Virus record (IMG/VR): IMGVR_UViG_3300005099_000066
Coordinates: 1-64,000 of that record
Length of the DNA: 64,000 bases
Origin: a virus
Strand: one strand, 5' to 3'
Shown here piece after piece: positions 14,351-59,503 of this stretch. How positions within the stretch are numbered: the first letter of the stretch is position 1; each line of letters starts with the position of its first letter. The notes under the pieces are model-generated. The model did no database searches. It was not told where the DNA came from and worked only from the letters and a program-made list of their open reading frames with translations. A program made the translations under genes and the position numbers.

Positions 14351-15826
14351 TTAGTTCTGGCTAAACTTAACAACTGTTATTCTTGCTCCACTTGGTAAGT
14401 CATAATTGAATGATATATATGGAGAACCCTGTTCTTGATAATCTTCAGTTGAACCAGGAGTTTGAAATACACCATTAACAAATACTAATATTCTACCAGA
14501 CTCATAAGAGCCAATGTCTATATTTGTGCCAGCTGTTGTGTCACTTGACAAATCAACATATGATGTAGAAACTGTATTTGATAAAAATTGTCCAGATTTA
14601 ATATACAGCTGATTACTTCCATTTTCTCCTATTGTTGTATCATCTATTTTAACAGCAACACCATTAGCACTAACATTAATAACCTTTGCTAAATTTGTTC
14701 CACCAGTAGTATCTGCTACAACAGAAAGAGCAGTTCCTCCACCTCCTGTTAATCCATTCCCAGCTACAGAAGTTGCCAAATGAGATTCTGTTATTCCACC
14801 AGATTTGACTTGAATTGTTCCAGAGGAATTTTCAATTGAAGAATCATCCACATTAACTTCTGCATAAATAGCAGGTGTATTATCATTATATGTAAACAGG
14901 ACTGAATGCCCTGAATTTGTTAGAATATTTCCAACTGCGTCCTGTGCTTTTTCGTCTGTGTAATATAAATGTGTGCTACCTTCTGCTAAATCATCAGTCG
15001 TAAATCCACTTAAAGATTTTAAGTATAAGTAATGGTTTGTAGTATCAACATCAATATTTGTTCCATCAACTTTATCAGATAAATAACCTGCAGTAGGGTC
15101 AGATGAATCCGCTTTCACATACTGGTCTGTTCCAGCTATTTGCTGAAATTCTAAACCAGTTTCCCCTGCATTTACAATAATAGCATATCCTCCATAGCCT
15201 GTGTATGAAGAAGGAGTATCATTTAAATTCAAAAATGATTTGGCATTCCAATATGTATCAAAATTTCCAGCATGTATAATCTCCCTTGCTGTTCCACCAG
15301 AATCCGTAAGAACCCATTTATCATTAGTCTCATCCCAGTATAACTGCATATCAGTTGAGTCTCCTCTCTCAACAATAATACCAGAATCCTCGGAGGGAGT
15401 GCCTGTAAATCCACTATTCAGATGAATCCATCTGTCCTCAACATGCAATTCTGTTACTGTTTCCTTATTTATTGAGCCTCCAATTGTAAAATCACCTGAT
15501 ACATATAAATTGCCTGTAATTGAAGCTCCACCTGAACTTACTGTTAATGCTCCATTGAAAGTAGCAGCACCTGCCTGTATATTTACCCAGGAAGAGTCTG
15601 TATCATCTCTTATATATAAAACTCCAGATGAATTTTTAAGCAAAATAGCAGAATTTATTTCAACTGAAGAAACGAGTATTTTAGTAGAAGAAGCATCAAA
15701 TGTTGTTGTTGTTTCTAATACTACAGTTCCAGAAGAGCCTCCGTAGAGGCTTCCAACAAGAGTATTAGAATCATTATAAATATCCAGATGTTTTCCATCT
15801 GTTAAGAGCAGATTTTTCTGAGCCAT
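14351..15826 (-). CDS. Tail-fibre-like structural protein B
   Basis: 491 residues with the same N-terminal module as protein A. The body contains VSGDFTIGGSINKETVTEL and LNLNDTPSSYTGYGGYAIIV, which are typical fibre segments. The C-terminal ~60 residues (ILVFVNGVFQTP, then YISFNYDLPSGARITVVKF) match the C-terminus of the next protein (15843-16460). The fibres therefore look assembled from exchangeable head and tip modules. GGAGG lies upstream of ATG 15826. Confidence 0.78.
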   Translation of the reverse strand: MAQKNLLLTDGKHLDIYNDSNTLVGSLYGGSSGTVVLETTTTFDASSTKILVSSVEINSAILLKNSSGVLYIRDDTDSSWVNIQAGAATFNGALTVSSGGASITGNLYVSGDFTIGGSINKETVTELHVEDRWIHLNSGFTGTPSEDSGIIVERGDSTDMQLYWDETNDKWVLTDSGGTAREIIHAGNFDTYWNAKSFLNLNDTPSSYTGYGGYAIIVNAGETGLEFQQIAGTDQYVKADSSDPTAGYLSDKVDGTNIDVDTTNHYLYLKSLSGFTTDDLAEGSTHLYYTDEKAQDAVGNILTNSGHSVLFTYNDNTPAIYAEVNVDDSSIENSSGTIQVKSGGITESHLATSVAGNGLTGGGGTALSVVADTTGGTNLAKVINVSANGVAVKIDDTTIGENGSNQLYIKSGQFLSNTVSTSYVDLSSDTTAGTNIDIGSYESGRILVFVNGVFQTPGSTEDYQEQGSPYISFNYDLPSGARITVVKFSQN

Positions 15827-15842
15827 AAATCAGTGCCTCCTT

Positions 15843-16460
15843 TTATGTGAATATTACAAAATCAATTATTGCTCCAGAAGGTAAATCATATGTGAATGAA
15901 ATAGATGTTGAAGAATCTTCAGTATATTCTTCATTTTTTGTTTGTAAAACTCCATTTACATAAACCATCAAATTATTCTCTCCAACTGAATATGACCTTC
16001 CATTTGGTATTGTAATAGATGTTCCAGCTGTAATATCTGATGGTGCTGTATAAGTTTCTCTGTATATTGTAAGTGATACAGAAGTTCCACCATTTCCTCC
16101 TTCTCCAAGACAAAAGACATCATTTAAAGCTGTATTTATTTTTTCCCATGATTTATCCAGGAGTGGTTTAACAACAGCTTCAATAATAGATTTGAGTAAG
16201 ACTTCACGCAGTGATTTAAGTATAGAAACAAATGGTTCCTGCTTAAGATTGATTTGTTGAATAATTGATAGAATCTGTTGTTCTGTATTTGAATCCAGTT
16301 CATGTTCAGATATATACTTCTGTAAATAGGATTTGAGATTTTCTGGATAGTATTCATCAAATAAATCAGGGTATTGAGAAATAATGTAATCATAAATATT
16401 GTCGACAATGCTGGAAATGTCAAGTCGTATTGGGCAATTGTATGTGTTTTCATTTAACAC
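15843..16460 (-). CDS. Structural protein with helical N-terminus and fibre-tip module
   Basis: 205 residues from a GTG start (16460) preceded by GAAGG. Residues about 1-115 are helical; a Gly-rich hinge (GEGGNGGTS) leads to a beta C-terminal domain (NLMVYVNGVLQ, then SISFTYDLPSGAIIDFVIF). That domain is the VYVNGV module common in phage fibre proteins and is shared with fibre protein B. It may serve as an adaptor or a short fibre. Confidence 0.65.
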   Translation of the reverse strand: MLNENTYNCPIRLDISSIVDNIYDYIISQYPDLFDEYYPENLKSYLQKYISEHELDSNTEQQILSIIQQINLKQEPFVSILKSLREVLLKSIIEAVVKPLLDKSWEKINTALNDVFCLGEGGNGGTSVSLTIYRETYTAPSDITAGTSITIPNGRSYSVGENNLMVYVNGVLQTKNEEYTEDSSTSISFTYDLPSGAIIDFVIFT

Positions 16461-16472
16461 ATCCTACCTTCC

Positions 16473-17825
16473 CTATTTGGTTTTATCAAACACAGTCAGA
16501 AATCTTGGAGAGGACATATAGCCAAACGAATGTAGAGTAATAGCATCTGAGTAGATTCTGTAGCCTATATCAGTTCTAAAATAACCATCGGGTATATGTA
16601 TATGATTTAACAGATTTTTATATGCCTGTAAAATAGCAGGCTCAAGTTTTGGATGTTTTCCTACAGACACAATAGCTCTTCCATGTGAAGGAACAATTCT
16701 GTAAACTCCATCTTCATCTTTGTAAATTCCAGCTGGAATATGTTTGTTAATAAAATCTGGCTTGTCAAGATAAACAGGACTGTTAGCAGATTCTTCTAAA
16801 ACACAAGCAAATGGATAACCTTTAGCATTGTAAGCAACTCCAACTAACCAATCTGAATCAATATCTACTTTTTTCATTAAGCCTTTTGGAATATCATGAA
16901 ATATCTTTCCGAGGGGAGTTCTTATAGCTGGCAACATTATTAAAATATGTGGATAACCAAATCTTGCTGTATATTCAAGAAAATAAGGTTTGCCATCTTC
17001 ATATGATACAATCGCATTTATGTCTATATAATTTACACCATAGTATTTTGAATACCATCTTTCTCTTCCCTTATCACCAAACATTAATTGAAATAATTTG
17101 TCTGAATCATCATATCCATTATTGTTGAATATTACTGTTCCCATCTCACCTGTCATTGGTCCTATTTCTCCTGGGAACAATCTTTTGTGCTCAAAATTCA
17201 TATTCCATGGGAATACATATCCATTTGGAGAAACAAATAAGCCAATAGCTACTTCAACACCTTCTATATATTCTGTAATTACAAGTTCTGTTGAATCATC
17301 TACACCTTTCTCAATTAAACCTTTCAAGTGGTCTATGGCATCATCTTTTCCAAATGCAACATATGTTTTAATAGAAGAATCTCCTACTTTGTTGACTTTA
17401 ATTACAGGTCTGGAGAATTCTCCTGATTTTATATCACTAATTGCCTCTTTTATAGAAGAGTAAATTTTTGATTTGGGAAAATAATCATACAGATTTTTGT
17501 CTTTAGCAAACATTCTTTCATTTTCCAGCCTTTCACCTATTGAACTTGTTCCCCAGACTGTTTTTCCTTCTTTTCTCAGTTTATCAACTGTTTGTCCCCA
17601 TCCCATATCAGGAAATACAATAACATCAACTTTGTCTATATATGGTTCCCAGTTGTCTATTCTTTTTACACCAAAGTCTTCCAAAATCCCTTTTCCATAC
17701 AATAAGTCTGCCTGTTCAGGATGTGCTCTTTGCCAAACTGTGTAGTAGTAAACCTCTTCACCTTCATTTGCAAGTCTAATAGCAATTGCTTCAGATAAAC
17801 CTGTGTCAACTATAAGATATTTCAT
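16473..17825 (-). CDS. PurD-like ATP-grasp ligase 1
   Basis: 450 residues. The N-terminal Rossmann-like part (MKYLIVDTG, then AIRLANEGEEVYYYT) and the following ATP-grasp region (PVIKVNKVGDSS; ITEYIEGVEVAIGLFVS; DINAIV, then FLEYTARFGYPH) follow the order of phosphoribosylamine-glycine ligase (PurD). ATP-grasp enzymes form amide-type bonds by way of an acyl phosphate. AGGAGG seven bases upstream fixes ATG 17825. A second, divergent copy lies 358 nt upstream. The substrate is unknown: a nucleotide, base, sugar or protein target are all possible. It is oddly placed inside the late structural operon. Confidence 0.8.
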   Translation of the reverse strand: MKYLIVDTGLSEAIAIRLANEGEEVYYYTVWQRAHPEQADLLYGKGILEDFGVKRIDNWEPYIDKVDVIVFPDMGWGQTVDKLRKEGKTVWGTSSIGERLENERMFAKDKNLYDYFPKSKIYSSIKEAISDIKSGEFSRPVIKVNKVGDSSIKTYVAFGKDDAIDHLKGLIEKGVDDSTELVITEYIEGVEVAIGLFVSPNGYVFPWNMNFEHKRLFPGEIGPMTGEMGTVIFNNNGYDDSDKLFQLMFGDKGRERWYSKYYGVNYIDINAIVSYEDGKPYFLEYTARFGYPHILIMLPAIRTPLGKIFHDIPKGLMKKVDIDSDWLVGVAYNAKGYPFACVLEESANSPVYLDKPDFINKHIPAGIYKDEDGVYRIVPSHGRAIVSVGKHPKLEPAILQAYKNLLNHIHIPDGYFRTDIGYRIYSDAITLHSFGYMSSPRFLTVFDKTK

Positions 17826-17827
17826 TA

Positions 17828-18172
17828 TTAGTCCTCCTGGAATTCTACATTTATATAGTTGAGCCAATCTGTAGGGAATGTTTTCATAAGATAATCCTGT
17901 ATTGTTTGTCTTATAAATTCACTTATTTTTCTCCTTCTTATGTAAATGTCTATATAGGAATCTTCATTCATTTTGTCAACACGAGGTTCTACAACTATAC
18001 ATGATTCACTTCCAACTTGTTCCTCTGCAAATGTTACAAAATCCTTCAGAAGTGCAATAAATACATCTTTGTCAACATTTATGCTATTTACAAAGTTTTC
18101 GAAGTCATCTTTATTACTCACAATTACAGTTGTTTTATCTGTCAAAAATGAAACAAATGTTCCGTAATCCAT
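17828..18172 (-). CDS. Hypothetical protein between the two ATP-grasp genes
   Basis: 114 residues, alternating strands and helices, with the stretch SYIDIYIRRRKISEFIRQ. No family recognised. GGAGGTGG precedes ATG 18172. It is packed between the two ATP-grasp genes (gaps of 2 and 10 nt), so it probably belongs to the same functional module. Confidence 0.6.
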   Translation of the reverse strand: MDYGTFVSFLTDKTTVIVSNKDDFENFVNSINVDKDVFIALLKDFVTFAEEQVGSESCIVVEPRVDKMNEDSYIDIYIRRRKISEFIRQTIQDYLMKTFPTDWLNYINVEFQED

Positions 18173-18182
18173 GTTCCACCTC

Positions 18183-19424
18183 CTAATACAAAATTCCTTC
18201 AGTTTGAGAAATCCATTGTTTTATTGTGCTAATTAAATCCTTATCATAAAACTTACCCTCAAAGTCTATCCAGTTGTTTGCTATGTCCAGAATTTTCTTC
18301 CAGGCATTGTCAACTGTTTTGTCATTTACCATGATTAAGCCAACTAAATCATCTCCTGGAATGAAATAATAATTATTCTTTACTTTAGCAACTCTTCTAA
18401 ATTCCCATTCTCTTAAACACTCCATATCTGGATTATCAAACATCTTTCCAGTTATTTTTAACCATTCGTCAGTATTTTTAGTAGCCAAATACAAACCAAC
18501 AAGCCAATTACCATTTACATTCCAGGGCACAGATTTTGCCTTTCCTGTTGCAATATGATATAGAAAGTCTGTATAATTTTTCAGGTATTTAGTCCAGAAT
18601 AAAGACAATGACTGAGCAAATCTGGAAGTAATATCAGTAACATATAGATTTTTATTTTTATCCATAAATCCTTCCAGAGAAAAGGGACCAGTGTAATTTG
18701 ATGCTTCCTTTTGACTAAATATCTTTTCTAATATTCCATTCCACAAAGATTTTTCAACTATCTTTAAAATATAGCCTGTTCCAGTAGCAAGTCCTACAGT
18801 GTATGGTTTTAGAATTTTGCCTTTGGATACCCAGACATCACATCCCACTTCAATCATATTTCTCATGTTTCTTTGTATTATTATAGGAGAAGTCTCGGAG
18901 AAGGGACCAATTGCACTTCTTAATTCTTCCAGCTTTGTTTTAGTATTACTATCATCTTTGGCATACCATGTGTCAATATTACCTCTAAAAATAGAATCAA
19001 CTTTTACCCAACAATCGTAATTGTATTGTTTAATTAAAACATAGGCTTCATCTACACCTTTAGCAATTTTGTATTCAGGAACTTTAACACCTATCTTATC
19101 AAGAAATTTGTAGCCTCTTGATTTGGAAATTTCATACTGTTCTAATTCTGCTCCAGACACGACATAATTTTTCTCAGATTTTAAGTAATTCACAAAATGC
19201 CCCATTCCAACATCAACAAATACAAGCAAATCGTAATTGTCTAACTCTCCAAAATCATATATTCTTCTGAATGAATCAAAACCCATACCTATTGCATATT
19301 CTTCCAGTCTTGGAAAGCCTTTTGAAATAGGAGTAAATAAATACACATCATGCCCATCAAAAGCCATTCTTGTGGCTTGTCCAAGTCCTGCAAATCCCTC
19401 TGTATCAACTACTAATATTTTCAT
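18183..19424 (-). CDS. PurD-like ATP-grasp ligase 2
   Basis: 413 residues, a diverged paralogue of the first ligase: MKILVVDTEGFAGLGQATRM, then GHDVYLFTP, and a matching VFVDVGMGHFVNYL segment (compare VFPDMGWGQTVDKL in ligase 1). The ATP-grasp body (CWVKVDSIFRGN; IIIQRNMRNMIEVGCDVWVS; YVTDITSRFAQ) is recognisable but the final metal- and ATP-binding Asp/Glu/Asn set is less clear, so it may have a different substrate. ATG 19424 overlaps the stop of the deoxyribosyltransferase-like gene (ATGA). Confidence 0.72.
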   Translation of the reverse strand: MKILVVDTEGFAGLGQATRMAFDGHDVYLFTPISKGFPRLEEYAIGMGFDSFRRIYDFGELDNYDLLVFVDVGMGHFVNYLKSEKNYVVSGAELEQYEISKSRGYKFLDKIGVKVPEYKIAKGVDEAYVLIKQYNYDCWVKVDSIFRGNIDTWYAKDDSNTKTKLEELRSAIGPFSETSPIIIQRNMRNMIEVGCDVWVSKGKILKPYTVGLATGTGYILKIVEKSLWNGILEKIFSQKEASNYTGPFSLEGFMDKNKNLYVTDITSRFAQSLSLFWTKYLKNYTDFLYHIATGKAKSVPWNVNGNWLVGLYLATKNTDEWLKITGKMFDNPDMECLREWEFRRVAKVKNNYYFIPGDDLVGLIMVNDKTVDNAWKKILDIANNWIDFEGKFYDKDLISTIKQWISQTEGILY

Positions 19425-20344
19425 TCTATTAAATCTATTGCGTTATTATAGTAGAACTCTATAAGATTATCAATTTCATCTATAACAGCATCAAAGAATT
19501 TTCTTTCTTCTTCAAATAATTTGATATTATATCTGGAAGCAACTATATCCACATTTCCCTTTCTCCAAAATCCGTCAGGACAATAAACTAAAACATTTTT
19601 ATCTCTGAATAAACCAAGTTCAAGAAGTGTTATAGGGGATTTTGTTCCAGGCACAAAGTAATAAATATTTATATCAGTTAATTCCTGACTCATCAATTCC
19701 CATTCAACTTGTTCTCTAAAATATGGATTATTTATGCTTTGTTCCCACGAAGAATCCCAGTCATCTCTGCGAGGATTTACTATGAAGACAATATATGATA
19801 ATTCGTTGTCTTTTGCATAATTTTTCAAGTAGGAATATATATGGTTTGTTAACCTTTTTTGCCAATTTTCAGCTGTTCCCATCTCAATAGAACCACCCAG
19901 AAATATTGAAACTGGAAATTCTCCTATATCAAGAAAGTAATTATACAAAGGTTTCCATTCAGTAGGAGCTTTTATTTCATACAACAGAATCTTTGTTGTT
20001 TCATTAACCAATTTTATTTCATTATCATTCAATTCAGAATCTTCTTCGAAATTTTTTAACAGAGTATCAAGAAAAAGCTGTTTTTCTGTTTTGGATAGAG
20101 ATTTGAGATATTTTGTTTTGAATTTATTAAATGTGTTTTTATTCATAAGAATTTTTTCAATAGCAATATCTTTGAAAATCAGAGTGTCCTTTAAATAATC
20201 TGGAAGAAACAGTTTTTCTGCTGCTTCATTTGATTTTTCCAAAAAAGCCATAAGAAGATTGTAAATTTCTTTTTCAGAAGAAGGTGTTTCAGGGAAAGTA
20301 ATTTTGAAAATCGAAGGCTGTTCTGTTGGCTTAAATTCCCACAT
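19421..20344 (-). CDS. Protein with C-terminal nucleoside 2-deoxyribosyltransferase-like domain
   Basis: 307 residues. The N-terminal ~140 are helical and unrecognised. The C-terminal part reads SIFLGGSIEMGTAENWQKRL, NPRRDDWDSSW, YFREQVEWEL, then SPITLLELGLF, followed by GFWRKGNVDIV. This matches the nucleoside 2-deoxyribosyltransferase-like family (Nuc_deoxyrib_tr_2), whose relatives exchange or hydrolyse the base of deoxynucleosides or deoxynucleotides. The helical N-terminal extension is unusual. Coupled to ATP-grasp 2 by ATGA. It may act on a free nucleotide or base as part of a modification or salvage route; that is inference. Confidence 0.75.
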   Translation of the reverse strand: MWEFKPTEQPSIFKITFPETPSSEKEIYNLLMAFLEKSNEAAEKLFLPDYLKDTLIFKDIAIEKILMNKNTFNKFKTKYLKSLSKTEKQLFLDTLLKNFEEDSELNDNEIKLVNETTKILLYEIKAPTEWKPLYNYFLDIGEFPVSIFLGGSIEMGTAENWQKRLTNHIYSYLKNYAKDNELSYIVFIVNPRRDDWDSSWEQSINNPYFREQVEWELMSQELTDINIYYFVPGTKSPITLLELGLFRDKNVLVYCPDGFWRKGNVDIVASRYNIKLFEEERKFFDAVIDEIDNLIEFYYNNAIDLIE

Positions 20345-20354
20345 AATAGTCTCC

Positions 20355-20726
20355 TTACAGTTTTACAAAGTTGTAAAAATCTTCAATTTTATTCAAAACA
20401 AATTTCCTTATCTTTCTTTGTCTCATAAGTTTTACTCTTTCTTCAGGAAAATTCCAGGAATACTCTAATTCAGCCAATTCGTAATATCTCTCAGCTTCTT
20501 CAGCAATCACATATTTTAATTCTTCCAAAAAGCTTTCTGTATCACCTTTCACATCTGCCTTTACTATAAATGCTTCTTCAGTTAAATCATAATCATATTC
20601 AGCAATTTCGAAATCATACTCATCGGAATATTCCATAAATTCCTCGAATAACAACTCAAGTGAACCCAAAAGCCATTTCCAGAATGGTCTATCAAGATTC
20701 GAAACAGGAATTTTTACCTCAATCAT
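20355..20726 (-). CDS. Acidic hypothetical protein
   Basis: 123 residues, very acidic and aromatic (EFMEYSDEYDFEIAEYDYD), helical at the C-terminus with a basic tail. No family recognised. ATG 20726 overlaps the preceding TGA (ATGA). Confidence 0.6.
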   Translation of the reverse strand: MIEVKIPVSNLDRPFWKWLLGSLELLFEEFMEYSDEYDFEIAEYDYDLTEEAFIVKADVKGDTESFLEELKYVIAEEAERYYELAELEYSWNFPEERVKLMRQRKIRKFVLNKIEDFYNFVKL

Positions 20727-21055
20727 GATACCTTTGGTGGATTTACTATTTTGCTTTGGTCTGGAATTTCGAGTCCAGTTGTTCTTCTTATATACTCTGC
20801 CACAGATTGTTTATTTGGTCTAAACCAGCCAATTACTCCTTTCAAGTAAAGCAATTCATTTTCCTCTATTGGTAAGTTTATTAGTAATAACAGTATCAAA
20901 CCTTTATCACTGCCAGGAGGCATGTGAGCTTGAACTAACATAGGCTTTTCTACTATTACTGTCCCATCAACTTGCGTGCCTTTGTAGTAACCCATTACCC
21001 ATCCAGCATGTGTTATAAATACTACTAATTCATTTATATCAGGCATTGTTTGCAT
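20723..21055 (-). CDS. Small beta-barrel-like hypothetical protein
   Basis: 110 residues. ELVVFITHAGWVMGYYKGTQ, then GTVIVEKPMLVQA, looks like the first strands of a small SH3/Sm-like barrel, followed by a hydrophobic strand and a short helix (VAEYIRRTTGLEI). Located directly after the terminase gene, with AAGGAGGT upstream. Not recognisable as a terminase small subunit. Confidence 0.6.
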   Translation of the reverse strand: MQTMPDINELVVFITHAGWVMGYYKGTQVDGTVIVEKPMLVQAHMPPGSDKGLILLLLINLPIEENELLYLKGVIGWFRPNKQSVAEYIRRTTGLEIPDQSKIVNPPKVS

Positions 21056-21065
21056 AATAACCTCC

Positions 21066-22925
21066 TTATTTGTCTAATTCTCTTATTCGAGAAGGAATAT
21101 TCACTCCTTCTCTTCCTCCTCCAATAATTTTTGTCCCTCCAAGGGGATTTGATGGGGGAACTAACTGTCTGAGGGGAGATTCCACTCTCGCAGTTGAAAC
21201 TGTTGAAGCCTTTCCAACTGCGAGTTTTCTTGCTTCTGCTTCAGATAAAGTTATTGAATCAGTTTTAGAGTCTATATGAAACAGTTTATTAAACCAAAAG
21301 ACCAAACCAACTATTGAATCAGCAATATCCTGATATCCCGTTATTACTCTGGGCTTTGAAGAGCCTGATGGAGGCTGGAGGTTTTTAAATTGTGAAATTG
21401 CCAAATATGATTCTTCCTGGTTTGGAAATATTATTGCTGGAGGATTAGAATAAAACAGATTTTTTGCACTGATATAATCTTGCTGATTTACAGGTTTATC
21501 ATCCCATTCTTTAGCAAGATGTTTAAAAGCAGCAGTGTTCCATTTGTCTGACTTTATTTTTGTAATATTCAAATACTTTGCAAGTCTACCTATTACATCA
21601 TAATAATTCCATAAATCTACTGATACATTCTTTTGTTTATCTGTTTGCCAGACTAAAATTGCATCAACTATTAAGAGTGGAGTTCCTCTTTGTATTAAGC
21701 CATGTCCTATTGCAACTGCTGCCATACAGTCAACTTCTCCTGGGTCTATACCCATAAAGTATTCGTATGGCTCTGGTTTTCTTGTAAATCTTAAGGTATC
21801 AGGTTTGTAAACAAATTTGTTTCCATTAGCAGTTTTTATAATTTCACTTTCGGCAATTACAAGAGGCAATCTGTTTTTATCAACAAAAACATCCTCATCC
21901 AAAACTTGTAAAACAGGCATCCATCTTTCTACAGAATATCCTACTGGAAGGGCAAGATATTTAGCTACAGCTGAATTAAAATCTCTGTCAAATTGAGTTT
22001 TGAAATCCATGGGGACATCAACTTCTAAATCAAATTCTTTCACATAAATTCTAAAAGTTTCTTTGCTAAAGAATTTCTTTGGTTTGACTTGCCATGTAAA
22101 ATAGTGAGAAGTATAGGCATTATCATATTTTCCATTTTTGACTTCTTCATGTAAAATATATGTAAAATCATTCTTTTTATCGAGTCTGGGGAATGATGTT
22201 ACAAGTCCCAGGTATGGAAGCTCTCTTGTTGAAGTTGTAGCTGTATTAAAAATCTTTTCAGCATTATGGATTCCAGATTGTGAAACATGTCCAGAAGCTT
22301 CATCCATAACAAAAGCAATAAGAGTCAAACCTTCCCATGATTCATTTTTGGAGGGAACTGATATGAATTCTACATTTATTGAACTGAATTTTATTGTATT
22401 TCCAGCTATATGAATTTTTGGCAATGACCTATCACATATATGTGAATTAACTATTTTTCCATGTTCCTCAATAGGATATTTGTTGAAAAATTTTGAATTC
22501 TTTATTCTGGCCTTTACTCTGTCAAACATTTTCTGGGACTGATTCTGGTTAGTTGCGACAGTTATAATTGATATAGCATCTGCTTTTGATACTCCAAAGA
22601 AATCATGAGGGTTTGGTTCAAGAAAGTGTAGAAGATAAATAACATAAGTAATTATGTTAGCAGAAACAAGTCCCTTTCCACTTCCCTTTCCCCAAAGAAG
22701 AACAGATAAATTTGGTCTTGTTTCAGGTGTAAAAAATAAGACAGGATCCCCTTTCACTCCACCTTCTCCAATAATAGCAAGAGATTCTCTGGTTTGGACT
22801 TCAGATAATTTTACCTCATTTAAATCATTATACAAAAATTCAAGAAATGGAAGAACATTGTGTGTTGGCTTTTTGACTTCAGATTTATTCTCACTTATTA
22901 GTATTTTTCTCCAATCAGAACTCAT
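21066..22925 (-). CDS. terL: Terminase large subunit
   Basis: 619 residues, close to the usual length. The N-terminal ATPase has a Walker A-like LLWGKGSGKG (about 76-85; Gly replaces the usual Thr/Ser after the Lys) and a Walker B LIAFVMDEAS (about 205-215). The C-terminal RNase H-like nuclease shows FMGIDPGEVDCMAAVAIG (about 394-411) and a late acidic DIADSIVGL segment. It would package DNA into the prohead and cut concatemers. AAGGAG lies seven bases before ATG 22925, within the end of a small Lys-rich gene. No small subunit was recognised nearby. The C-terminal ~60 residues are Gly/Pro/Arg-rich and probably disordered. Confidence 0.9.
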   Translation of the reverse strand: MSSDWRKILISENKSEVKKPTHNVLPFLEFLYNDLNEVKLSEVQTRESLAIIGEGGVKGDPVLFFTPETRPNLSVLLWGKGSGKGLVSANIITYVIYLLHFLEPNPHDFFGVSKADAISIITVATNQNQSQKMFDRVKARIKNSKFFNKYPIEEHGKIVNSHICDRSLPKIHIAGNTIKFSSINVEFISVPSKNESWEGLTLIAFVMDEASGHVSQSGIHNAEKIFNTATTSTRELPYLGLVTSFPRLDKKNDFTYILHEEVKNGKYDNAYTSHYFTWQVKPKKFFSKETFRIYVKEFDLEVDVPMDFKTQFDRDFNSAVAKYLALPVGYSVERWMPVLQVLDEDVFVDKNRLPLVIAESEIIKTANGNKFVYKPDTLRFTRKPEPYEYFMGIDPGEVDCMAAVAIGHGLIQRGTPLLIVDAILVWQTDKQKNVSVDLWNYYDVIGRLAKYLNITKIKSDKWNTAAFKHLAKEWDDKPVNQQDYISAKNLFYSNPPAIIFPNQEESYLAISQFKNLQPPSGSSKPRVITGYQDIADSIVGLVFWFNKLFHIDSKTDSITLSEAEARKLAVGKASTVSTARVESPLRQLVPPSNPLGGTKIIGGGREGVNIPSRIRELDK

Positions 22926-24289: not shown

Positions 24290-24301
24290 ATGAGACAATG
24301 A
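24290..24301 (+). CDS. Possible 3-codon minicistron (M-R-Q)
   Basis: The AAGGAGGT after promoter copy 1 is 4 nt from ATG 24290, which opens ATG-AGA-CAA-TGA; the TGA overlaps the ATG of the first real gene (24298). Ribosomes may start here and reinitiate. It may also be chance. Confidence 0.25.
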   Translation: MRQ

Positions 24302-24699
24302 AAAATATTTTTATTGTCCATAGGTGTTTGATGTGTGGTGAATGTTGCAAAAAATCCAGAGTTCATATGACGGAAGAAGAATTCAAAAAAGTTCCAAAGA
24401 GATTTCATTTTCTTTTTCACAAAGTATATGTGAAAAGTAAGGATGTTATTTTGTATAAAGTAAAAGTTCGGGATATGGAAACGGGAGAGTTAATTGCTTG
24501 GAATTCATTTTTAGAGGTTATGGATGATAAATATGTTTGTGGGGCTTTGATGAATGATGGAAAATGTTTTCTTCATCCTTACAAGCCTCAGATTTGTAAA
24601 GATATTTGGTGCAAGAAATCTGAAATAAGCATTTTTAAGTTTGTTTTAGAAAAGTTGAGGAGGGTTAAAAGATGGATAAAAAGAAAAAAGATTGGGTAA
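24298..24699 (+). CDS. YkgJ-type Cys-rich metal-binding protein
   Basis: 133 residues. CLMCGECC (10-17) and, downstream, CGALMNDGKCFLHPYKPQIC plus a further WC match the CxxCxxCC...C..C..RP..C layout of the YkgJ/FliB-like zinc/iron-chelating family. Members are thought to bind Fe-S or Zn; the role in phages is unknown. First gene of the rightward arm, 31 nt after the promoter element. The next gene overlaps its 3' end. Confidence 0.75.
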   Translation: MKNIFIVHRCLMCGECCKKSRVHMTEEEFKKVPKRFHFLFHKVYVKSKDVILYKVKVRDMETGELIAWNSFLEVMDDKYVCGALMNDGKCFLHPYKPQICKDIWCKKSEISIFKFVLEKLRRVKRWIKRKKIG

Positions 24700-34174: not shown

Positions 34175-34438
34175 ATGATGCCAAAATACAAAGAATGGAT
34201 TTTGGGGATTATATTGAAATTTTTTCCGAAGTATTTTAAAAAATTATCAGAGAGAACATACAAAACTGAGATTGGACTTACGGGTCATGTTAGTGACATT
34301 GATAAAATGGTGGCAAAAGAGAAAGGTCTTAAGCCTCTTAATGTGTTTGAAAGATGGTTATTGAAAGAATTTATTGCTTATGAGAAAAAGAGATTACAGC
34401 GAAATTTCAAAACAATTTTGGAAGAGTATGGAATATGA
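34175..34438 (+). CDS. Basic hypothetical protein
   Basis: 87 residues, Lys/Arg-rich, helical (NVFERWLLKEFIAYEKKRLQ). GAGGAGGCG before tandem ATGs 34175/34178; coupled to the DUF2284 gene by ATGA. No family recognised. Confidence 0.6.
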   Translation: MMPKYKEWILGIILKFFPKYFKKLSERTYKTEIGLTGHVSDIDKMVAKEKGLKPLNVFERWLLKEFIAYEKKRLQRNFKTILEEYGI

Positions 34439-35250
34439 TAAAAACAAAATCGTATACTATGTTGCCAATTGCTGATGTGAAAATGAAACATTTGAAAGAT
34501 TTTAAGTATTACAACACAATTACTTGGTTGAGGGATGGATTTAAAGATTTATACCCAGAAGAATTTGCCATAGTGAAAACAACTTGGGGTAGATTTAACC
34601 TTGGTATGAAAATTGTAAATAGTTCTGATGTTCCAGTTGATAAAGAGAAAACATTAAAAGGATGTTCTACTTGTCCTGTATTTATTCAAAAGAAAAATTG
34701 GTCTTGTCCTCCTTTGTTTAATTCAACATTTCAAAAACAATTAATAAAAGGAGGTAATCCTGAAAAAATAACAGTGGTTTGGATGAGAACTTATTTGCCT
34801 CCAAGACTTGTGTTCTATTTGAATAATAGTAGATTTATTAAATATCTAAATTCAGGTGTTTCTAATGTTGAAGAGAATTATTTTGATAAGTGGTTACATT
34901 TCGTAAGAAAGAAAACAGAATATTATACTCTTGGTGCTGGTTCTTGTAGAGTCTGCAAACCTGCTTGTGCTGCGAAATATGGATTGCCCTGTAAAAATCC
35001 GAAGTATAGACAGCCTTCTTTAGAATCTGTTGGGGTTCTTGTTAATGAATTGATGGAGAATATAATTGGATACCCTATGTATTGGGAAAGGAGAATTTGT
35101 AAAGTTGAATTGAAGTATGAAATACCTTTATGGTATTGGTTTGTTGGAGTCATTTTTTCAAATGAATTGGATAAACAATTTTTGTTTGATGTTTTTGTTG
35201 AATCATCTAAATGTAAAGAAAAGGGATGGATATGTTTGAAAAGATTTTGA
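34435..35250 (+). CDS. DUF2284-like metal-binding protein
   Basis: 271 residues with the cysteine layout of DUF2284: GCSTCP (about 80-85), then WSCPPLF (about 90-96), GSCRVCKPACAAKYGLPC (about 170-187) and YRQPSLESVGVLV (the R-x-P-S-x-E-x-x-G signature). The family is predicted to bind Fe-S or zinc, function unknown. Directly followed within 1.5 kb by the PIG-L and glycosyltransferase genes, so it may serve that pathway. ATGA start. Confidence 0.75.
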   Translation: MIKTKSYTMLPIADVKMKHLKDFKYYNTITWLRDGFKDLYPEEFAIVKTTWGRFNLGMKIVNSSDVPVDKEKTLKGCSTCPVFIQKKNWSCPPLFNSTFQKQLIKGGNPEKITVVWMRTYLPPRLVFYLNNSRFIKYLNSGVSNVEENYFDKWLHFVRKKTEYYTLGAGSCRVCKPACAAKYGLPCKNPKYRQPSLESVGVLVNELMENIIGYPMYWERRICKVELKYEIPLWYWFVGVIFSNELDKQFLFDVFVESSKCKEKGWICLKRF

Positions 35251-43152: not shown

Positions 43153-43539
43153 ATGAATAAAAAATTGAAAGAATTTTTTGAAAGTCTGCCAAAAATAGAA
43201 GTGCTGAAAATGACTTCCCTTTCAGAATTCGAAGAGCCATTTTCATTGATGTTTGAGTTGTATATGGCAAAGAATAAAGGTTATGGAGCTTCCTGGAGAA
43301 AGAGAGGAATTCCAAGTTCTTTTGAGAATATAAGCAGAAAATATGACAGACTTCTTGTTCAAGTAGAAAAATCTAATTTTCATCCAGAAAATCTTTCAAA
43401 TGAAGAAAAACTTGATTTCTTTGATACGGCAATTGACCTTGCTGTGTATTCATATCTTTTTCTTTGGTTTGTATATGATTTGTTTGGAGAAGAAATAGTA
43501 AAGGAGTGGAGAAAGAAAGTAGGATTGGAAAATGGATAA
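43153..43539 (+). CDS. Nmad1/DUF1599-like nucleotide-modification-associated protein
   Basis: 128 residues: NKGYGASWRKRGIPSSFENI, a K..RLL turn, then KLDFFDTAIDLAVYSYLF. This matches DUF1599 (nucleotide modification associated domain 1), described by Iyer and co-workers in phages with modified bases, though its biochemical activity is not known. GGGGAGGTG sets ATG 43153 (43093 in the same frame is inside the previous gene). It sits directly before the DNA polymerase and overlaps it by 8 nt. Confidence 0.75.
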   Translation: MNKKLKEFFESLPKIEVLKMTSLSEFEEPFSLMFELYMAKNKGYGASWRKRGIPSSFENISRKYDRLLVQVEKSNFHPENLSNEEKLDFFDTAIDLAVYSYLFLWFVYDLFGEEIVKEWRKKVGLENG

Positions 43540-45910
43540 AACTCTGAGAGAAGAATGTAAAAATTGTATATTCTTCAATAATGCGTATGTTCCTCCAGAA
43601 TATCCTTTTGGTGATGAAAAAATTGATGTTTTGTTTATAGGAGAAGCTCCTGGGGTAGAAGAGGAAAGACTTGGAAAGCCATTTGTGGGAAGGTCAGGCC
43701 AATTATTTAGAGATGCTCTTGCTGAATTTATAAAGGAATTTCCTCATCTGAAATTTGGAATAACAAATGTTGTGAAATGCCATCCTCCCAATAATATGAC
43801 TCCCAAATCAGCTGAAATAAAATTGTGTAAGCCTTTGCTTCTTGATGAGATAGAGAAGTATGACCCAGATTTTATAATACCTTTAGGAAACACAGCTCTT
43901 CAAGCAATAGTTGGAAGGGCAGGTATTCAGAAAAATTTAAATCAAGTTATAACTAAAGTTGTTGCTGGAAGGGAGAGAACAATAATACCAACTTTTCATC
44001 CTGCTGCTATTTTAAGAAATCCTCATCTATTACAAGATTTTGTGAGAACATTTGGTATATTAGAAAAGATAATGAAAGGACAGGTTCTTGAGTTGGAGGA
44101 TTTCATAGTTGTAGATGATTTTAGGAAGATTGAAAATATGTTGAATGATTTATCAAATTCTAAAGCATTTGCTTTTGACCTTGAGACTTCTTCTTTGAAT
44201 CCTTTTTCTGAGAATGCCAAAATTCTTTGCTTGTCTTTGTCAAATGGGAAAAATACTTATGTTATCCCTGCTAAAGATTATGAGATGTCTAATCTGATTG
44301 ACTTGTTAAAAATTGTTTTTTCCCTTCCAGCTAAAAAGATTGCTCACAATGCGAAATTTGATGTGAAATGGTTAAAAGTTTTTGGTGTGGAAGTTAAGAA
44401 TCTGGCTTTTGATACTATGATAGCCCACTATTTGATTAATGAAAATTTGCCTCACTCTCTGGCTTTTATTCTATCTGAAATGGGATTTGTTGACCACAAA
44501 GGAGATTTTTCAAGAGCTGTTGGAGGGGAAACTGCTACTTGGAAGGTGTTATCTGATGAAGAAAAGCTTAATGAATACTGGGATGTTCTTCTTGAGTATA
44601 ATGCGAAAGATGCTTGGTCAACTTATTTAATCTATGAGAAATTAAAAGATAAACTCGAATCAAGTCAGGTTTGGTTAATGGAAAATTTTTATATTCCTTT
44701 GATATACACATTTTCAGAAATAGAAATTTATGGGATGAAAGTTGATTTGAATAGAATCCAGTATTTATCCCAGAAGTATAAGAATGAAATGAAGAAAATT
44801 ATATCTGAAATGGAAAATTTATCGTCCGTCAAATTTTGGAAGACTCTACATCCTGATGAAAAATTTAATCCATCTTCGACAAAGCAAGTTGCTGAAATTA
44901 TTTTTGATATAGAGAAATTAGAAGTTATTGCTATGACTCCGAAAGGAGCACCATCGACAAAGAGTGAATTTCTTGAATTTCTTGCCTCGAAATCGAAATT
45001 TGTTAAATTGTTGTTAGAATATAGGAAAATTATGAAAAACGAAACTGCTTTTATAAAAGGCATTCAAAAACATATAAAAATAGATGGATGTGTTCATCCC
45101 TCTTATAATCTTATTGGAACAGTGACGGGCAGAATATCTTGTAGAGAGCCAAACATACAACAGATACCAAAAGATTCAGAAATAAGAACAATATTTGTTC
45201 CAAAACTTGATTGGTTTATAGAAGCTGACTTTTCACAAATAGAGTTAAGAGTTGCTGCTTCTTTGTCTGGGGACCCATATATGATTGATGCTTATAAAAA
45301 AGGTGAAGACTTACATACAAAAACTGCTTCTTCCATATTTGGGAAGAGACCAGAAGAGGTTTCAGAAGAAGAACGATTTGTGGCAAAAACTATTAATTTT
45401 GGTATTTTGTATGGAATGGGAGCAAAGAGTTTACAGGCAAGAGTTTCCAGAGAAGGAATAAATATACCTTTGAAAAAGGCAGAAGAATATATCAGAAAGT
45501 TCTTTATAGCCTATCCTGTTTTGAAAGCTTGGGTAGATGAGCAAAAATCAAAAGTTCTTGGTTCCAGAATGGTAGTGTCTCCTTTTGGAAGAATTAGAAG
45601 ATTAATGGGAACTTCTGATGATGATTTGAGACAGGGTGTAAATGCTCCTGTTCAGGGAACTGCTTCTGATTTAACTTTGTTTTCTGTGATGTTTCTTCAC
45701 AATGAATTTAAAAGGAGAGGTTTGAAATCCCATATAGTAGGTTCAGTTCATGATTCAATATTATTTGATGTGGCTGATGAAGAATTACACTGTGTTGTGA
45801 CTCTAATAAAACAGATAATGGAAGGACTTGATTTTGATTTTATAAAAGTTCCTTTGAAAGTAGATGTTGCAATAGGAAAGGCATGGGGAGAAATTTTAAT
45901 GGAGGTATAA
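43532..45910 (+). CDS. Uracil-DNA glycosylase / DNA polymerase I fusion
   Basis: 792 residues, three units. (1) Residues 1-190, a family 4-like uracil-DNA glycosylase: Fe-S cysteines C9, C12, C83, C99, the motif GEAPG (38-41) with KPFVGRSGQL, and FHPAAILRNP (His 156). (2) A DEDDy 3'-5' exonuclease: FDLETSS (D216, E218), HNAKFD, YNAKDAW. (3) A family A polymerase: motif A EADFSQIELRVAA (D566), motif B AKTINFGILYG (Phe at the ddNTP-gate position) and motif C VGSVHDSILFD. It should copy the phage genome, and the front domain may remove or sense uracil. Phage SPO1 polymerase, from memory, has a similar N-terminal domain. The all-motif-intact glycosylase part is unusual. Confidence 0.92.
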   Translation: MDKTLREECKNCIFFNNAYVPPEYPFGDEKIDVLFIGEAPGVEEERLGKPFVGRSGQLFRDALAEFIKEFPHLKFGITNVVKCHPPNNMTPKSAEIKLCKPLLLDEIEKYDPDFIIPLGNTALQAIVGRAGIQKNLNQVITKVVAGRERTIIPTFHPAAILRNPHLLQDFVRTFGILEKIMKGQVLELEDFIVVDDFRKIENMLNDLSNSKAFAFDLETSSLNPFSENAKILCLSLSNGKNTYVIPAKDYEMSNLIDLLKIVFSLPAKKIAHNAKFDVKWLKVFGVEVKNLAFDTMIAHYLINENLPHSLAFILSEMGFVDHKGDFSRAVGGETATWKVLSDEEKLNEYWDVLLEYNAKDAWSTYLIYEKLKDKLESSQVWLMENFYIPLIYTFSEIEIYGMKVDLNRIQYLSQKYKNEMKKIISEMENLSSVKFWKTLHPDEKFNPSSTKQVAEIIFDIEKLEVIAMTPKGAPSTKSEFLEFLASKSKFVKLLLEYRKIMKNETAFIKGIQKHIKIDGCVHPSYNLIGTVTGRISCREPNIQQIPKDSEIRTIFVPKLDWFIEADFSQIELRVAASLSGDPYMIDAYKKGEDLHTKTASSIFGKRPEEVSEEERFVAKTINFGILYGMGAKSLQARVSREGINIPLKKAEEYIRKFFIAYPVLKAWVDEQKSKVLGSRMVVSPFGRIRRLMGTSDDDLRQGVNAPVQGTASDLTLFSVMFLHNEFKRRGLKSHIVGSVHDSILFDVADEELHCVVTLIKQIMEGLDFDFIKVPLKVDVAIGKAWGEILMEV

Positions 45911-58483: not shown

Positions 58484-59503
58484 ATGACTATTGTTATCAA
58501 ATCAAATAATTTCTTCGAGGCAATAAATGAGGTATTCTTTCTCATAAAGGATAAAGGAAAAGTCAGAAAAACAAGAAACACAGAATCTGTCTATATACCT
58601 GATTTAGTTGTTATTGATGTAAAAGACCCAACTAAATTTACTTCATATCCCCATCCTTCCAGGAAGGTTTTTCCTCCTGCTCAATTTTATGAAGTTGCTT
58701 GGGTATTATCTGGAAGAAATGATGTGTTGGGATTGGAATTGGTTTTGAAAAGGGCAAGACAATTTTCTGATAACTTTCATCAATGGAGAGGAGGGTATGG
58801 TCCCCGAATACATTGGAATAGAAATATATTTAAGATAATAGAATTGTTAAACAAAGACCCAGAAACAAGAAGAGCAATCCTTCCTATATTTTTTCCAGAG
58901 GATGTCGAAGCAACTCATTGGTCTTTGGATATTCCTTGTTCGATTATGATTCACTTCCTTCCCATAGATGATAGGCTTGATGCAAGATTTTTTATCAGAA
59001 GCAATGATGCCTTCTGGGGCTTTACTCATATAAATTTCGTTCTGATAAGAACAATCCAGAGAATAGTTGCTTATTTCTCAAACAAAAAGGTAGGACATTT
59101 ACAATACATTGCTTCAGATTTGCATGTTTACAAAAGGCATATGAACAGACTTGAAAAAATATTGAAAAGTGTTGTCTTTCCTACTTTAGTTAAATCATAC
59201 CCCTGGGATGTCTTTGAGGATAATGAATTTGATAGTCCAGAAAGTTTCTTTAAGATTTTACAAAGAGATTTGGCTGTGCTTGATTATGTTTTGATGGATA
59301 AGTCAATAAAGAAAACAAAAAGCAAATTTTTACTTGATTCAAAACCTGCTGATTACTTATTGAATTCCCCTCTCAGAAGATGGTGGCTTCCCATTTTGGC
59401 TTGGAAGAAAGGTAATTTGGAAATTATGAAAGAATATATTGATAATGTTGAAGAAACTGATGTATATGAGGCTTTGGAACTATGGATGAGAAAAGAACAA
59501 TAA
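58484..59503 (+). CDS. Thymidylate-synthase-like dNMP C5-methyl/hydroxymethyltransferase
   Basis: 339 residues. FYEVAWVLSG, RRAILPIFFPED, SLDIPCSIMIHFLPID (nucleophile Cys 152) and RSNDAFWGFTHINF correspond to the ThyA core, and DLHVYKRH to the H-x-Y motif. In ThyA the Asn that selects dUMP (Asp in dCMP hydroxymethylases) sits 8 residues after the conserved Asp; here that position is Ile with Asn one later, so base preference is unclear. The RSND form is typical of phage members, and the end after residue 260 diverges. It could make dTMP or a hydroxymethyl pyrimidine. Confidence 0.78.
   Translation: MTIVIKSNNFFEAINEVFFLIKDKGKVRKTRNTESVYIPDLVVIDVKDPTKFTSYPHPSRKVFPPAQFYEVAWVLSGRNDVLGLELVLKRARQFSDNFHQWRGGYGPRIHWNRNIFKIIELLNKDPETRRAILPIFFPEDVEATHWSLDIPCSIMIHFLPIDDRLDARFFIRSNDAFWGFTHINFVLIRTIQRIVAYFSNKKVGHLQYIASDLHVYKRHMNRLEKILKSVVFPTLVKSYPWDVFEDNEFDSPESFFKILQRDLAVLDYVLMDKSIKKTKSKFLLDSKPADYLLNSPLRRWWLPILAWKKGNLEIMKEYIDNVEETDVYEALELWMRKEQ

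Follow-up and report, generated by a model that had tools for sequence, protein, structure and literature searches.

Why would a virus place two proteins resembling the purine enzyme PurD (glycinamide ribonucleotide, GAR, synthetase), together with a nucleoside 2-deoxyribosyltransferase-like protein, among its late genes? The window, that is, the whole stretch of DNA analysed here, comprises 64,000 nt (positions 1-64,000) of the 76,948-base virus record IMGVR_UViG_3300005099_000066, a record that may be incomplete and has a G+C content of about 32%. Within it, four packed minus-strand genes, p4, p3, p2 and p1, lie between the terminase gene and the fibre genes:

21066..22925, minus strand: terminase large subunit (TerL), upstream in the same operon; annotated phage terminases matched by tblastn with E as low as 7e-15
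19421..20344, minus strand: p4, 307 aa; ~140 N-terminal aa that match no Pfam family convincingly, then a PF15891 (nucleoside 2-deoxyribosyltransferase-like) domain at the C-terminus
18183..19424, minus strand: p3, 413 aa; diverged ATP-grasp protein of PurD fold, active-site residues partly lost
17828..18172, minus strand: p2, 114 aa; orphan protein
16473..17825, minus strand: p1, 450 aa; ATP-grasp ligase of a PurD-paralogue family, active-site residues kept
14351..16460, minus strand: two genes for fibre or virion structural proteins, immediately downstream of p1; weak PHROG tail-fibre and virion matches

An earlier note, made from the sequence alone, had described a module at 16473-20344 packed with an ATGA overlap, and both the coordinates and the packing hold. 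The stop of p4 and the start of p3 share four bases (ATGA), and the ATG of p1 lies two bases past the end of p2. This ATG, at 17825, is preceded by an AGGAGG ribosome site, which a TTG further upstream, at 17867, lacks. Good ribosome sites precede p4 and p2, that of p2 being strong; p3, which lacks one, depends on the ATGA overlap. No terminator-like sites are found on the minus strand from 23783 to 15801. The description of the module as terminase-linked stands insofar as TerL is upstream in the same operon; it lies three genes from p4, and the two genes in between (20355-21055) are orphans. Single-protein searches of the viral collection return no close viral relatives of p1, p3, p2 or TerL, and p2 has no Pfam match and only marginal PHROG matches. 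Elsewhere in the window, a small CxxCxxCC protein (24298-24699, putatively zinc- or iron-chelating) opens the plus-strand region, and positions 34435-35250 hold a phage-encoded DUF2284, a predicted metal-binding protein.

What kind of enzyme is p1? It matches the GARS_A and GARS_C models of Pfam (E of 2.7e-12 for PF01071), and its structural model (pLDDT 84.7) has the full-length PurD fold, aligning to PurD chains with Z scores up to 32.9 and an rmsd of 3.1 over 391 residues. The ATP-grasp residues K143, K153, E191, E212, K214, E227, E284, T286 and R288 are kept. Against TIGR00877 (purD), however, it scores 108.7 bits, below the curated cut-off of 288, and the PurD-specific motifs DHK, TGGMG and EFNxRFGDPE are absent, p1 reading EHK, TGEMG and EYTARFGYP. 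Aligned with nine PurD-type sequences from the same genomes, one of which (245 bits) is itself under the cut-off, the paralogues show fixed differences: D to E212, TGG to TGE227, N to T286 and GDPE to G(Y/W)P. The asparagine replaced by T286 is presumably a Mg site in PurD. All invariants of the paralogue family, E212, E227, D268, N270, E284, T286 and R288, are present in p1, which deviates at other near-invariant family sites, Q184, C271 and P282. Judged from its sequence, p1 is not a GAR synthetase but a member of a sharply defined family of PurD paralogues. Taking the chemistry class from the ATP-grasp fold, we infer that p1 would be an ATP-dependent carboxylate-amine ligase.

The family is large. 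A profile built from p1 and its phage relatives finds it on at least 289 viral contigs, and a second profile at no fewer than 539 confirmed loci in bacterial and archaeal genomes; the taxa of 80 of these at least 539 loci include Nitrososphaera, DPANN archaea, Patescibacteria, Acidobacteria, Proteobacteria, Planctomycetes and others. Among 18 genomes tested, mostly metagenome-assembled and possibly incomplete, eight carry a true PurD above the cut-off with the paralogue elsewhere in the same genome, and nine have no PurD-level match, six of these nine having no SAICAR synthetase either. Given that the family coexists with true PurD, or is found where PurD and SAICAR synthetase are missing, it is very unlikely to be a purine enzyme. 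The cellular members have no conserved neighbours, those sampled being unrelated. Two planctomycete members (L163 5912-8275 and L197 6380-8275) have open frames 631-787 aa long; the additional N-terminal portion of the longer cellular versions has no Pfam match, and in the planctomycete members it may be just an open upstream frame. Among open-licence papers we found none on this family.

In phages the upstream neighbour is on the same strand at 102 of 105 loci and mostly encodes a large late protein, the median gap being -3 bases; at 66 of 108 loci the downstream neighbour falls in one fibre-like cluster, obtained by single linkage in the presence of repetitive fibre sequence. Throughout the main phage clade the gene occurs as a singleton that closes the late operon, behind genes for large late proteins, and a fibre gene often follows it. 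The named phage ct2os315 shows the same arrangement, its copy coming last among the late genes and being preceded by those for large hypothetical late proteins. What recurs in other phages is a late p1-family gene next to virion and fibre genes, and the complete p4-p3-p2-p1 module is found only in the present record. The tree groups the phage members into a single clade with support 1.0, and p1 and p3 lie outside it, with a placement support of 0.42-0.68 that is open to long-branch effects. p1 is nearer to cellular members, the closest being from a Nitrososphaera assembly at 35% identity. Because p1 and p3 fall outside the phage clade and p1 is closer to cellular members, a second, independent recruitment of the family into a phage late operon is likely.

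The earlier note's reading of the genes themselves, a pair of diverged PurD-like ligases packed into a late operon with a small protein and one resembling deoxyribosyltransferases, is borne out for the partners of p1 as well. p3 matches p1 in sequence with an E value of 2.3e-8, making the two paralogues; its Pfam match is marginal (0.071), and its model (pLDDT 74) again has the full-length PurD fold, with Z up to 28.8 against PurD chains and an rmsd of 3.7 over 374 residues. It retains K141, E192, K203, T266 and R268, and D264 stands where p1 has E284. Relative to the family, K153 has become I150, E212 is K201, E227 is gapped, D268 is S249 and N270 is E251, so that of the invariant set T266 and R268 alone are kept. 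Loss of the ATP-grasp residues from both ligases, which the earlier note had named as a point against its own proposal, is not what we find: p1 keeps them, and it is p3 that lacks several and may be inactive or changed. No close relatives of p3 are found in named phages. p4 matches PF15891 with an E value of 4.2e-26 and 91.8 bits, above the gathering cut-off of 30, and phrog_30579 with 2e-37; it is 35-49% identical to other phage PF15891 proteins and keeps all 26 columns that are invariant among eight of them, including the glutamate of SPIxLLE, which we take to be the catalytic residue of the deoxyribosyltransferase family. The solved structure closest to p4 is labelled an uncharacterized protein.

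A question follows, what would such a set of enzymes do late in infection? The explanation that we favour, tentatively and at less than even odds, is that p1 is a late-made ligase, distinct from GAR synthetase, acting on a virion or late protein, with p3 as its diverged partner and p4 as an accompanying PF15891 enzyme. Most likely p1 would couple an amino acid or a comparable small acid to an amine of a virion protein or of one that acts late, the target being a guess. p3, as a diverged tandem copy, is probably a partner of altered specificity or a regulatory one. p4 may process a nucleoside or NAD-type metabolite tied to the same step, its link to the ligases likewise being guessed. Modification of a late virion or fibre protein, the other half of the earlier proposal, would fit the recurrent late position beside virion and fibre genes. 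Against it, the family has no conserved cellular neighbour pointing to protein modification, and the late-operon position can be hitch-hiking. The wider proposition, that a large family of PurD-derived ligases entered phage late operons on two or more occasions, there to attach a small molecule to virion proteins, and that a catalytic and a diverged copy are here paired with a deoxyribosyltransferase-like enzyme, we hold to be rather doubtful.

Could the module serve small-molecule chemistry instead, the PF15891 protein and the ligases making or removing a nucleotide-type metabolite, for instance in NAD metabolism or as a counter-defence? PF15891 genes lie near NAPRTase/NAMPT-type and PRPP-synthetase-type genes on two viral contigs (L004 4876-8606 and L005 1-2789), and near a PRPP synthetase gene on a third (L006 7959-11804); these neighbours hint at nucleotide or NAD chemistry. 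Yet the present record has no match to the NAPRTase family, 18 other phage records that carry the p1 family yield no PF15891 match, and a late position is unusual for counter-defence. We consider this pathway rather unlikely.

The earlier note had also suggested a base-decorating pathway. In a more specific form of the idea, 5-hydroxymethyl-dU would be synthesised by the phage and then decorated by the late enzymes ahead of packaging. The protein encoded at 58484-59503 is thymidylate-synthase-like and has its nearest counterparts in phages of the thymidine-hypermodifying type (Montesquieu, Pam3, ViI), with which it has a WGxxxxN motif in common; Montesquieu and Pam3 carry aGPT-Pplase genes. 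Its best PDB match is CMP 5-hydroxymethylase, and it is possibly a dUMP hydroxymethylase. Positions 43532-45910 encode a family A DNA polymerase with an N-terminal domain of the uracil-DNA-glycosylase (UDG) superfamily, which aligns over nearly its full length to SPO1-type phage polymerases. Given that the thymidylate-synthase-like protein and the UDG-domain polymerase resemble those of hypermodification- and SPO1-type phages, 5hmU in the DNA of this phage is possible. HMUDK_hel, the 5hmU kinase-helicase, however, has no match in the 76,948-base record, and the same model matches both control phages, Montesquieu and Pam3. The ADDT and Mom-type modification models have no match in the record either, but as they matched no control genome these two negatives carry no weight; per-protein scans of the record reveal no HMUDK_hel or ADDT family. 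Among the 18 other phage records, which may be incomplete and carry p1-type genes only and not the whole module, none has a thymidylate-synthase-like or HMUDK_hel protein, as none has PF15891. Given this gene content, base modification does not seem to be a requirement of the p1 family, which weakens the base-decorating idea; we regard that idea as unlikely.

Equally improbable in our estimate is a late modification of the cell surface or cell wall, such as a superinfection block or an aid to lysis. A role in modifying the cell wall has been proposed for the amidoligase and amidotransferase genes that phiEco32-type phages carry (see the discussion in PMC10580990). Cluster 2, a lysozyme-like gene by inspection of its sequence, occurs at 50 p1-family loci, in most of them a few genes downstream. 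The phiEco32-type enzymes, however, belong to other families, and no cell-wall precursor enzymes are seen nearby. That p1 is a metabolic helper boosting purine synthesis as a GAR synthetase, as its PurD fold and GARS_A and GARS_C domains would have it, is highly improbable in view of the sub-threshold score, the altered diagnostic residues and the occurrence of the family alongside true PurD or in genomes that lack both PurD and SAICAR synthetase.

An ATP-grasp enzyme labelled as a purine enzyme in domain searches, a label that residues and distribution contradict, is present in hundreds of phages and prokaryotes. With its gene recurring next to virion genes, a chemical modification of phage particles can be tested for directly.

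Set beside known systems, the module shares parts with several. From the thymidine hypermodification systems of the ViI, Pam3 and Montesquieu type it differs in that the kinase-helicase and pyrophosphorylase families are not found here and that the p1 ligase family is present in phage records without any of their genes; the likeness is the related hydroxymethylase-like thymidylate synthase elsewhere in this genome. The R2K-clade ATP-grasp peptide ligases of phages are, like p1, phage ATP-grasp enzymes for which protein modification is proposed (PMC4431377, PMC7824862), whereas here the architecture is of the PurD type and the position is in the late operon. With PurD (TIGR00877), p1 has in common the full-length fold and the ATP-grasp core residues, but its diagnostic substrate-side residues are changed, its score is far under the cut-off, and its family coexists with true PurD or sits in genomes without the pathway. 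The C-terminal domain of p4 is that of PF15891 (Nuc_deoxyri_tr2), down to the invariant residues and the SPIxLLE glutamate; p4 departs from that family in its extra N-terminal region of ~140 aa and in the company it keeps, its neighbours being ATP-grasp proteins rather than NAD or nucleotide genes.
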